Shown here: positions 10,906 through 12,760 of the stretch, piece after piece
How positions within the stretch are numbered: the stretch's first letter is position 1
How the letters are laid out: every line of letters begins with the position of its first letter
Origin: a virus
DNA length: 20,205 nt
Direction: 5' to 3' (one strand)
IMG/VR virus record: IMGVR_UViG_3300027969_000498
Span: 1 to 20,205 of that record
Made by a program: the position numbers and the translations under genes
Notes under the pieces: generated by a model
The model's input: only the letters and a program-made list of their open reading frames with translations
Databases searched by the model: none
Told to the model about the DNA's origin: nothing

Positions 10906-11112
10906 ATGAATACTGTTGTAAATACCCCACAAACAAGTTCATTTGACAGGCTGATGGCTGAATTTGGCACGATCAAGACCTTATGCGAAAAGATTGGCGT
11001 GAAGTATGTAACGGCCTATGCCTGGAAGATGCGTAACGGCATCCCTAAGAAGTGGCACAAATCTATCATAGAGGCATCTGAAGGCAGACTGACAGAGAAC
11101 GACCTTGGCTAG
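10906..11112 (+). CDS. Cro/YdaS-like helix-turn-helix regulator
   Basis: 68 residues with a helix-turn-helix: LMAEFGTIKTLCEKIGVKYVTAYAWKMRNGIPKKW at about residues 16-50, where IKTLCEKIG and KYVTAYAWK are the two helices. The ending ASEGRLTENDLG matches the short C-terminal strand of Cro/YdaS-type proteins (G-x-[LV]-T-x-x-[DE]-L). Such proteins bind dyad operators and repress early promoters. Its ribosome site AAAGGAG is five bases before the ATG, and an inverted repeat overlaps its promoter. No CI-type partner was seen. Its stop overlaps the start of the next gene. Confidence 0.85.
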   Translation: MNTVVNTPQTSSFDRLMAEFGTIKTLCEKIGVKYVTAYAWKMRNGIPKKWHKSIIEASEGRLTENDLG

Positions 11113-11416
11113 TCAAAATGTCCGTACTGTGGCTCTTATGGAGTCTAGGGGCTATATGTGCGATGTGGTAGAAAGTTATAACGCTTTCACAAAGCGCAAG
11201 AAAGACCTATTCTCTATCTTTGACATCTTGGCTATTGGCAATGGAGAAACAGTAGGCATCCAGATCACCAGCAAATCCAATATGTCATCTAGGATTAAGA
11301 AGATTAGTGAATCAGATTTCTTACCGGAGCTAGTGCGATCTAACTGGAAGATACTGGTGCTAGGATGGTACAAACTGCCGAATGGAAGATGGGCTTGCAA
11401 AGAGTTTGAGTTCTGA
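11105..11416 (+). CDS. Small nuclease-fold phage protein (103 aa)
   Basis: Residues 38-62 read FSIFDILAIGNGETVGIQITSKSNM: a strand with Asp39 followed by a strand with Gln-x-Thr-x-Lys, a variant of the PD-(D/E)XK core. The upstream RTVALMESRGYMCDVVE and the downstream SRIKKI match a common phage family of such proteins. The frame starts at a TTG at 11105 that overlaps the previous stop. The first ATG (11138) would remove residues that look conserved, so TTG is preferred with moderate confidence. The third core residue is Gln where active enzymes carry Glu/Asp, so catalysis is uncertain. It lies in the same transcript as the regulator. Confidence 0.72.
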   Translation: MASQNVRTVALMESRGYMCDVVESYNAFTKRKKDLFSIFDILAIGNGETVGIQITSKSNMSSRIKKISESDFLPELVRSNWKILVLGWYKLPNGRWACKEFEF

Positions 11417-11424
11417 TGTAAGAT
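11395..11424 (+). promoter_or_regulatory. Candidate promoter for the structured region
   Basis: TTGCAA (11395-11400), an 18-base spacer and TAAGAT (11419-11424) resemble a sigma70 promoter, each hexamer matching four of six. The predicted start, about 11431, coincides with the 5' strand of the first hairpin. The sequence fit is modest. Confidence 0.3.
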
Positions 11425-11650
11425 GTAATTTCCTATTTCGAGGCTCTAACGACATACCAGGGAATAGGAAGATTAGTGCTACTGGGGGTAAAGGATGAAA
11501 CAGCACAAAGTAGGTGGCGAAGCCAGAGCCTACTCCTTGTAAGTCTGGCGGGTTCTGTAACTCCGATTGAGCACAGATGAAGGCGATCCTAGGTAGGCTA
11601 GGTTCGTTCACCGAAAGAGCAGTAACCTTACTAAAGACTAAGGTATAAAC
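11417..11650 (+). ncRNA. Candidate structured RNA or cis-regulatory leader, unknown family
   Basis: No credible gene occupies this stretch. By hand count 11471-11620 is 51% G+C, against 28% for 11651-11800. Stems: 11430-11439 with 11461-11470 (ten pairs, one G-U); 11476-11480 with 11502-11506; 11509-11518 with 11522-11525 plus 11529-11534, closed by a GAA loop (ten pairs, three-base bulge); 11554-11558 with 11573-11577 enclosing 11561-11563 with 11569-11571; 11588-11592 with 11598-11602; 11625-11630 with 11639-11644. Alternatives exclude some of these: 11522-11527 with 11544-11549, and 11441-11447 with 11525-11531 (a pseudoknot). It does not fit any RNA family I could compare by eye. It could be a small RNA, a 3' UTR structure, a switch or a replication origin. 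Strand is assumed from neighbours. Confidence 0.4.
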
Positions 11651-11664
11651 AATGTATATACATT
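11651..11664. repeat. Perfect 14-bp palindrome
   Basis: AATGTATATACATT reads the same on both strands. It directly follows the structured region and begins an AT-rich control stretch. Dyads of this length in a phage control region are typical repressor sites. Binding protein unknown. Confidence 0.55.
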
Positions 11665-11674
11665 GATACTTAAA

Positions 11675-11722
11675 CTTTACAAAAACCTATGTTTGTAAAG
11701 AACAAGAAACATTATTGTAAAG
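11675..11722. promoter_or_regulatory. 9-bp inverted repeat plus an extra half-site
   Basis: CTTTACAAA (11675-11683) and TTTGTAAAG (11692-11700) are perfect inverted arms with an 8-base spacer. The half-site TTGTAAAG occurs again at 11715-11722, exactly 22 bases after its copy at 11693-11700, about two helical turns. The core TTTGTARA is shared with the sites at 10800-10832, 10889-10896 and 11777-11784. Probable operator array. Confidence 0.5.
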
Positions 11723-11724
11723 TC

Positions 11725-11753
11725 TGAGCCGTATTTTCTACATTTACGGCTCA
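11725..11753. repeat. Hairpin-forming inverted repeat
   Basis: TGAGCCGTA (11725-11733) pairs perfectly with TACGGCTCA (11745-11753) across an 11-base loop. No run of T follows on either strand, so it is not a standard intrinsic terminator. It could be a transcript hairpin or an operator. Confidence 0.5.
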
Positions 11754-11761
11754 CAAAACAC

Positions 11762-11791
11762 TTGCATCAACTTAGATTTGTAGATTAGTAT
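11762..11791 (+). promoter_or_regulatory. Candidate promoter with repeated control motif
   Basis: TTGCAT (11762-11767), an 18-base spacer and TAGTAT (11786-11791) place a transcript start near 11798, the A of the next start codon, so the message may lack a leader. The segment ATTTGTAGATTAGTAT at 11776-11791 differs in one base from the leftward promoter at 10793-10808, with the TTTGTAGA half-site in the same position before the -10. The stretch 11417-11797 otherwise contains no gene. Confidence 0.4.
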
Positions 11792-11797
11792 GTATTT

Positions 11798-12130
11798 ATG
11801 AAACAAATTAAAAAGTCTATGTTTAATCTTTGTGCCGATGCCCATAGTTGTTTTCCTACCTGGCAAAAGAAACCCCTTAAAGTTGATTGGCTTAAAGATC
11901 GAGTTCTCTATAGAGGCATAACCAATATGGGCGAGATCATCTGTACGCCTGTTTACTTTTCAACTGATGAGTATAAGACTGCATACATCATGGATGCTAT
12001 TACCGGCACTTGCTACAAAGGTAGTAAATGTTGCACATCTGACAACCTTCAGCTTTTATCCTATAAGCCAGAGCTGGGGCTAGACAAAGAACTTTTATCC
12101 ATGCGTAATAACAAAACACTAGGAGTCTAA
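11798..12130 (+). CDS. Hypothetical protein (110 aa)
   Basis: 110 residues starting at an ATG without a visible ribosome site, which agrees with a leaderless message. It has a basic N terminus (KQIKKSMFN), a Trp/Lys-rich segment (WQKKPLKVDWLKDRV), beta-like stretches (GEIICTPVYF) and five Cys, including CYKGSKCC. No known motif was recognised. It is the first gene of a short run leading to replication genes, and the next start follows two bases after its stop with its own AGGAG. Confidence 0.65.
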   Translation: MKQIKKSMFNLCADAHSCFPTWQKKPLKVDWLKDRVLYRGITNMGEIICTPVYFSTDEYKTAYIMDAITGTCYKGSKCCTSDNLQLLSYKPELGLDKELLSMRNNKTLGV

Positions 12131-12132
12131 AT

Positions 12133-12369
12133 ATGTGGCTGCAAGAAAGGTCTTGGCAAAGATTAAAGATAGCAAAGTGGATAGGTACAACTCTATGTCT
12201 AATCGGCATATTCCTTACTTCTTTTAACATCTTTCCACTTAATATTTACTTTGGTCTATTAGGTAGTGCGGTCTGGGCTTTAGTTGGTATATACCAAGAA
12301 GATATACCACTATTTGTTGTAGAGTTTGTAGCAGTTTTATTCTATGTTGCAGGTGCATATTACTCGTGA
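12133..12369 (+). CDS. Small three-TM membrane protein (78 aa)
   Basis: 78 residues, mostly hydrophobic. Three likely membrane segments lie at about residues 15-32 (AKWIGTTLCLIGIFLTSF), 36-53 (LNIYFGLLGSAVWALVGI) and 58-76. A short basic-aromatic N terminus (MWLQERSWQRLK) precedes them. Proteins of this layout are common in phage early regions and are usually unassigned. AGGAG seven bases upstream of the ATG supports the start, and the next gene's ribosome site begins at its stop. It may act at the host membrane, perhaps against superinfection, but this is a guess. Confidence 0.75.
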   Translation: MWLQERSWQRLKIAKWIGTTLCLIGIFLTSFNIFPLNIYFGLLGSAVWALVGIYQEDIPLFVVEFVAVLFYVAGAYYS

Positions 12370-12379
12370 AGGAGCAATA

Positions 12380-12760
12380 ATGTTTGATGAATTTTGGAAG
12401 TTATACCCAAGAAGGGTAGCAAAAAAGGCAGCACAAAAAGTATGGTTAAGAATGACTAAACAAGAGCAAGAAGATTGTATTGAGGCTCTGCCAAACCATG
12501 TTGCGTATTGGAAACTAAAGCAAACTGAGATGGATTTCATTTGTCATCCAAGTACATTTTTGTCGCAGGGCCGATGGGAAGATGAGCTAGACATGGAAGT
12601 TAAGAAAGCTAAAAAGCCTGAGTTGCCTTGGTATAGCTCAGAAGATGCAACAATAAAAAAAGCTCAAGAGATAGGAGTCCAGGCTTATGCTGGAGAAGGA
12701 TGGCAGCAATGGCGAGCAAGGATCAGCCAACGCATTAAGCAGCTTGAGGAGCAGTTATGA
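12380..12760 (+). CDS. Replication-type phage protein (126 aa)
   Basis: I place the start at the ATG at 12380, preceded by AAGGAG with five-base spacing. An upstream in-frame start would lie inside the previous gene. MFDEFWKLYPRRVAKKAAQKVW opens the protein, followed by ALPNHVAYWKLKQTEMDFICHPSTFLSQGRWEDEL. The FWxxYPRxxxKxxAxKxW and HPxTxLxxxRWEDE patterns are the C-terminal hallmark of phage replication proteins related to lambda O or DnaT-like proteins. Here that module stands alone, without the N-terminal winged-helix part, so it may be a short replication accessory protein. The rest is Lys/Glu-rich and helical. It overlaps the methyltransferase start by ATGA at 12757-12760. Confidence 0.78.
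   Translation: MFDEFWKLYPRRVAKKAAQKVWLRMTKQEQEDCIEALPNHVAYWKLKQTEMDFICHPSTFLSQGRWEDELDMEVKKAKKPELPWYSSEDATIKKAQEIGVQAYAGEGWQQWRARISQRIKQLEEQL

Follow-up and report, generated by a model that had tools for sequence, protein, structure and literature searches.

A phage-borne Betaproteobacteria-1 RNA with three pseudoknots, an extended 3′ domain and matched variable repeats

The CI RNA of phage P4 and the c4 RNA of phage P1 are small immunity-region RNAs that pair with complementary repeats in cis. In lambdoid phages put RNAs or nut sites act after cro; the put RNAs of HK022, which are lambdoid antiterminators, are ~70 nt long, cis-acting and part of the leader. RF02932, named Betaproteobacteria-1, is listed in Rfam as an sRNA gene. 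Its model has three nested stems only, with all of the pseudoknots described here absent, and no paper describing the family was found in the literature searched. The GOLLD and ROOL RNAs are pseudoknotted non-coding RNAs of phages and prophages with unknown function and no known protein partner, about 650 to over 800 nt in length and located near tRNA islands (PMC12286853).

The RNA described here lies within 20,205 nt of viral DNA (IMG/VR record IMGVR_UViG_3300027969_000498), referred to below as the window. It is a phage member of the Betaproteobacteria-1 family. The RF02932 model aligns over positions 1-120 of 120 with a score of 91.0 bits against a gathering score of 49.4 and E of about 1e-16 (cmscan, Rfam 15); its three stems are formed with zero non-standard pairs flagged, and it is the sole Rfam family found in the whole window. 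We regard the identity as virtually beyond doubt. Since RF02932 covers 11430-11553 above threshold, the class of RNA is already known; the preliminary description had matched no known class by eye, and is corrected on this point. Conservation continues to about 11626, so that the RNA is ~200 nt in length compared with the catalogued 120, with a conserved 3′ end lying ~75 nt beyond the end of the Rfam model. Our own covariance model (named R1, as is one of the repeats below) matches the full length over its positions 1-202 of 202 with 171 bits. The Rfam search of 11300-11820 was extended up to E 5, at which no group I intron or other ribozyme and no GOLLD or ROOL model matched, and ARAGORN found no tRNA or tmRNA genes in the window.

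The region is bounded by the stop of a 103-aa gene (11416) and the start of the next credible gene (11798). It had been singled out as a gene-free stretch of raised G+C content with ordered stems, typical of structured RNA, and this description holds. Positions 11471-11620 have a G+C content of 51.3% and positions 11651-11800 one of 28.0%, with 40.4% for the whole window. Across the RNA no frame is open in more than 7 of 46 relatives, and the lengths of the RNA in relatives are spread over all three phases, arguing against a conserved protein frame. That the RNA is structured is supported both by covariation and by the Rfam match. The coordinates of all the features are collected in Table 1.

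Table 1. Coordinates of the RNA, its helices and repeats, the neighbouring elements and the RNA modules of sister phages. Positions are those of the window unless a locus is given.
Feature	Position	Strand	Basis or remark
Cro-like DNA-binding protein gene	10906-11112	+	PHROG 409 transcriptional regulator
103-aa protein gene	11105-11416	+	nuclease-like by eye; 3′ end marks RNA slot
-35-like TTGCAA	11395-11400	+	sequence; 18 bases before -10-like box; below consensus-scan threshold
-10-like TAAGAT	11419-11424	+	two bases past stop codon of upstream gene
Full-length Betaproteobacteria-1-type RNA including 3′ domain	11428-11626	+	own covariance model, covariation, 49/51 pairs formed
RF02932-covered part	11430-11553	+	cmscan
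Helix P1: 11430-11439 with 11461-11470	11430-11470	+	93.7% paired, 9/9 modelled pairs double-sided
Pseudoknot A: 11457-11460 (P1 loop) with 11482-11485 (P2 loop)	11457-11485	+	100% paired
Helix P2: 11476-11480 with 11502-11506	11476-11506	+	97.4% paired, 5/5 double-sided
Pseudoknot B: 11491-11495 (P2 loop) with 11534-11538	11491-11538	+	88.6% paired, 5/5 double-sided
Helix P5: 11510-11514 with 11529-11533	11510-11533	+	96.8% paired, 5/5 double-sided
Pseudoknot C (helix P4): 11523-11527 (P5 loop) with 11544-11548	11523-11548	+	98.2% paired, 2 pairs double-sided
Helix P6, outside Rfam model: 11554-11558 with 11573-11577	11554-11577	+	92% paired, 5/5 double-sided
Helix P7, outside Rfam model: 11582-11592 with 11598-11608	11582-11608	+	84-89% paired, double-sided changes
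Direct repeat R1: CTCC, 4-base linker, variable word GAGCA	11561-11573	+	sharing test
Direct repeat R2: CACC, 4-base linker, variable word GAGCAG	11609-11622	+	sharing test
Replication-initiation-like gene, downstream	12344-12760	+	PHROG 270
Module X	L370:4438-4569, L393:4328-4460, L451:10425-10562, about 40 more	+	no Rfam match
Module Y, ~230 nt	L370:4568-4798, L262:2070-2300	+	covarying, no Rfam match
Module V, ~190 nt	L451:10555-10764, L329:1020-1229	+	covarying, no Rfam match

The RNA has a compact core with three pseudoknots, followed by a 3′ domain of two hairpins. Ten helices covary in 80 distinct sequences, the three pseudoknots included; 90.9% of cells are paired, 45 of the 51 pairs exhibit double-sided changes, and 1002 double-sided compensatory cells are observed compared with 299 ± 19 in shuffles. 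Compensatory changes in homologues, proposed earlier as a check, are therefore many. On sliding the partners by 1-3 columns the paired cells fall to 33-47%, with every slid control collapsing. The structure was derived by hand and first counted on 37 aligned phage sequences, and the recount on the 80 followed realignment to a covariance model built from the 37. Because that realignment was guided by P1, P2, P5, P6 and P7, the nested hairpins of the structure, the counts for these five helices lean towards it. The alignment model left out the three pseudoknots, in which 88.6-100% of cells are nevertheless paired. The window RNA itself forms 49 of the 51 modelled pairs, and we place high confidence in the extended, pseudoknotted structure.

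Starting at the 5′ terminus, the ten-pair stem noticed previously at 11430-11470 is P1, and corresponds to stem 1 of the Rfam model. In pseudoknot A, swaps from CG to UA and from AU to GC are seen; the helix that extends it outwards is paired in only 58% of cells. A hairpin closed by GAA had been drawn at 11509-11534. Its outer arm, which covaries, is retained as P5. The relatives do not bear out the inner GGC-GAA-GCC closure; in them 11523-11527 forms pseudoknot C instead. P5 encloses the conserved core UGGCGAAG, and this sequence, UGAAA and GAACG are the highly conserved unpaired core bases. At least six stems had been counted earlier; rather than six hairpins in a row, there are five, tied together by three pseudoknots. 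What we took to be a resemblance of the core GGUGGCGAAG to helix 23 of 16S rRNA is short, and was dropped.

R1 is located in the loop of P6 and R2 follows P7. Their general layout is CNCC, 2-5 bases and a variable word, which between phages is GAGCAG, GGGCA, AAAAGCAAC, GGACAGG, CGGCATG, GGGAACAA, GGTAAAG, GGGTATC and others. In 43 dissimilar RNAs the longest word common to R1 and R2 within an RNA has a mean length of 6.53 nt compared with 4.08 ± 0.16 nt on permuting R2, and 0 of 5000 permutations reach the observed mean. The controls of R1 against P7 and of the core against R2 reveal no excess sharing. The new feature is a repeat word that is variable between phages and constant within each RNA, and there is very little doubt that the matched repeats are real. 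Two matched recognition sites are suggested by this combination of variation between phages and matching within each RNA. Chromosomal copies of types D (CCGTAG) and E (GGGGCAT) retain the repeat, while type C is without R1 and R2. No convincing complement of the shared word was found near its own locus, the repeat word has zero further 9-base matches in a 58.6-kb contig, and no start-codon target was found in the complete phages AP1 and MW202545. Nor does the type-E word have a consistent chromosomal target in five genomes, where 11 of its 15 sites are in known RNA copies, one is in a partial copy, and the remaining three are in unrelated sequence without common context.

In the AT-rich phage group the RNA probably has its own promoter (11395-11424 in the window), judging from the recurrence of a -10-like box. 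Of 19 AT-rich members, 14 have a -10-like hexamer at a distance of 4-14 nt upstream of P1, compared with 2-9 of 19 in control windows, and a -35-like element is similarly placed upstream of several of them, including members with other upstream genes. The transcript start anticipated near 11431 would fit this arrangement, as the first modelled pair comes six bases after the end of the -10-like box at 11424. No promoter-like box was seen in the GC-rich phage group. An intrinsic terminator follows the RNA in 6 of 46 phage members, and none was found after it in the window.

The RNA is downstream of the Cro-like gene in 47 of the 53 phage loci that have a relative of this gene, which it tracks more closely than the replication-initiation-like gene; of the 70 loci that have a relative of the latter, only 23 carry the RNA. 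It is found with 35 of 62 searched relatives of the 103-aa gene, whose product has no Pfam or PHROG match. In GC-rich phages the gene preceding the RNA is the primase of a ParB-helicase-primase cluster. The phage neighbours vary (Cro-like, primase, PAPS-reductase-like), and 39 of 44 upstream genes and 30 of 41 downstream genes are on the same strand as the RNA. The proteins encoded at about 100 loci revealed no universal partner, and neither the Cro-like gene nor the 103-aa gene is an obligate one, because in other phages the RNA is preceded by primase or other genes. By eye the 103-aa protein looks like a nuclease (FDILAIGNGETVGIQITS); relatives of it are present in 94 phage stretches. Downstream of the RNA there are two possible operators, a palindrome CAATGTATATACATTG at 11652-11667 and an inverted repeat TTTACAAA...TTTGTAAA at 11680-11703, and a hairpin GAGCCGTA...TACGGCTC at 11728-11754 that is without a T-run.

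A search for the core pattern returned 93 viral-contig stretches and 11 bacterial contigs, four of the latter looking like chance matches in coding sequence, and there are about 90 phage relatives of the RNA. Contigs of Paraburkholderia, Achromobacter, Thauera, Ottowia and Variovorax contain relatives, and many phages of Betaproteobacteria have the RNA in the early part of their genome. The RNA is present in Siphoviridae isolate ctpbd312 and in Acidovorax phage AP1, where it occupies an unannotated gap downstream of the primase gene, at positions 11856-12062 of the AP1 record. Copies occur in 57 of 398 sampled genomes from the family of a Paraburkholderia genome (Burkholderia-type) and in 3 of 200 from that of Thauera; the RNA is almost absent from class- and phylum-wide genome samples. 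The full-length model was matched by every phage source searched, all selected for carrying the core (one is truncated at the contig end), and the chromosomal copies match it too. The latter adjoin unrelated genes on either strand, and some are located on genomic islands with Tn7-like or defence-like genes. In L145, L156 (chromosomal type C), L146 and L160 the neighbours are an H-NS-like gene and an SF1 helicase, or TniQ-TniB-transposase genes; the helicase has an MTES_1575 nuclease domain (PDC-S37/Hhe-like). In L143-L147 two copies of the RNA lie in the same orientation 3-13 kb apart in one chromosome, and intact pairs of copies in types D and E have identical or almost identical repeat words.

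Sister phages that have the Cro-like and 103-aa genes without Betaproteobacteria-1 carry other RNAs in the same slot. No Rfam family besides RF02932 was found in the loci scanned. The structures of modules X, Y and V are RNAalifold predictions, with double-sided changes in 14 of 39 predicted pairs for X (33 aligned), 20 of 40 for Y (24 aligned) and 19 of 40 for V (18 aligned); the shuffle and slide controls cover the Betaproteobacteria-1 RNA only. Module X is ~135 nt in length (GCAGA...TCTGC), with a long hairpin and then a T-run, and is often just 3′ of a TATAAT-like box. Its words are hypervariable yet complementary, e.g. TTGATACC with GGTATCAA. It lies immediately 5′ of Betaproteobacteria-1 in 5 of 92 loci, and also in L393 and L402. 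Module Y, with core pattern GAACATTATCTTAGG in 54 viral stretches, replaces Betaproteobacteria-1 in the slot. Module V, with core pattern GGGTCGACACCTNCGATAGCCG in 87 viral stretches, is found there alone or after X or Z. Module Z is a hairpin RNA of X-like build (CAACCCCAGTATTTTTAGGCGGGGTATG...ACATACCCC...TTGGGGTTTTCC) before V, located 3′ of the 103-aa gene in L374, L375, L378, L379, L381 and L384.

While the identity of the RNA is nearly certain, the mechanism is one that we infer. The RNA may well be a trans-acting early phage cargo RNA with two matched recognition sites, a reading we hold at a little less than an even chance. It would start at its own promoter, immediately downstream of the Cro-like and 103-aa genes in the early region, and act in trans as swappable early cargo. 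On this reading the RNA would be free-standing and probably swappable, and swapping is suggested because the same slot in sister phages holds other covarying RNAs. The pseudoknotted core would be a scaffold read by something host-encoded, because no phage protein gene accompanies the RNA everywhere, and R1 and R2 would both bind one partner specific to the phage or host, base pairing being the simplest way for them to do so. More tentatively, and with considerable doubt, the Betaproteobacteria-1 RNAs might be two-armed, the scaffold presenting two identical phage-specific words to one partner, and might belong with X, Y and V to one interchangeable non-coding RNA slot in the early region of freshwater phages. 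If so, the slot would be the RNA counterpart of protein-coding anti-defence and superinfection hotspots.

The main rival to a trans-acting RNA is a cis-regulatory leader, i.e. an antiterminator, attenuator or riboswitch-like element of the early transcript that controls the downstream replication genes. This would suit the position of the RNA, between cro-like or primase and later early genes and mostly co-directional with them in phages, and the presence of module X, with its hairpin and T-run end, in the slot or just upstream of the RNA in some sister phages. We nevertheless consider it unlikely, because the neighbours differ and the chromosomal copies adjoin unrelated genes on either strand. 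The downstream genes vary among phages, the RNA accompanies the same replication gene in the minority of loci given above, and the chromosomal homologues are free-standing, often with opposite-strand genes downstream; the copy in L146 is directly followed by a T-run terminator. Moreover, a simple attenuator would not be expected to have matched repeats.

Somewhat less probable again is that the RNA acts as a decoy or inhibitor, blocking host defence or redirecting host machinery through binding to a protein of the host or a component of the ribosome; R1 and R2 would then be two sites for a dimeric protein with host-dependent specificity. The lack of any phage protein constantly alongside the RNA, the slot as a hotspot of unrelated RNAs, and the defence-like or Tn7-like genes on the islands of some chromosomal copies are all consistent with this, whereas the recurrence of words such as GAGCAG in distant phages and the chromosomal copies outside phages argue against it. 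We know of no defence-linked phenotype or protein partner. The conserved unpaired core bases and compact pseudoknotted fold might also suggest a ribozyme or self-processing element, having a catalytic multi-pseudoknot core with R1 and R2 as substrate sites. This is very improbable, as none of the Rfam models for ribozymes or introns gave a match, the two repeats vary freely, and a cleavage-like boundary is not seen. Finally, chance structure in a non-functional spacer would agree with the folding energy of the window RNA, for which the comparison with shuffled controls suggested in the preliminary description did not set the RNA apart (z = -1.13, with 31 of 200 shuffles folding equally well) in a test that is blind to pseudoknots. 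It is refuted by the overwhelming covariation and the Rfam match, and its probability is negligible. Covariation is decisive here; folding energy alone is insufficient to reveal the structure.

The named but unexplained RF02932 family becomes a testable object through the longer model, the pseudoknots and, most of all, the matched repeats, and its Rfam model may be extendable at the 3′ end and by pseudoknots. If the slot with several covarying non-Rfam RNAs is confirmed, this would mean that modules of non-coding RNA are exchanged between phages at one fixed position, in parallel with their exchange of defence and anti-defence genes. Among known systems the window RNA is closest to RF02932, being alike in sequence and structure over the first 120 positions with relatives in the same bacterial group, and it adds to that model three pseudoknots, two 3′ hairpins and the repeats R1 and R2. 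Like GOLLD and ROOL it is elaborate, pseudoknotted, phage-borne and without a known protein partner, but it is far shorter at ~200 nt, lies near cro and replication genes, and is also found on chromosomes outside phages. Like the HK022 put RNAs it is structured and located 3′ of cro on the early transcript, and it differs in having free-standing chromosomal homologues. It resembles the P4 CI and P1 c4 RNAs as a small early- or immunity-region RNA whose repeated specificity words vary from phage to phage; in contrast to these, its word has no consistent cis complement, and no other Rfam family matches it.
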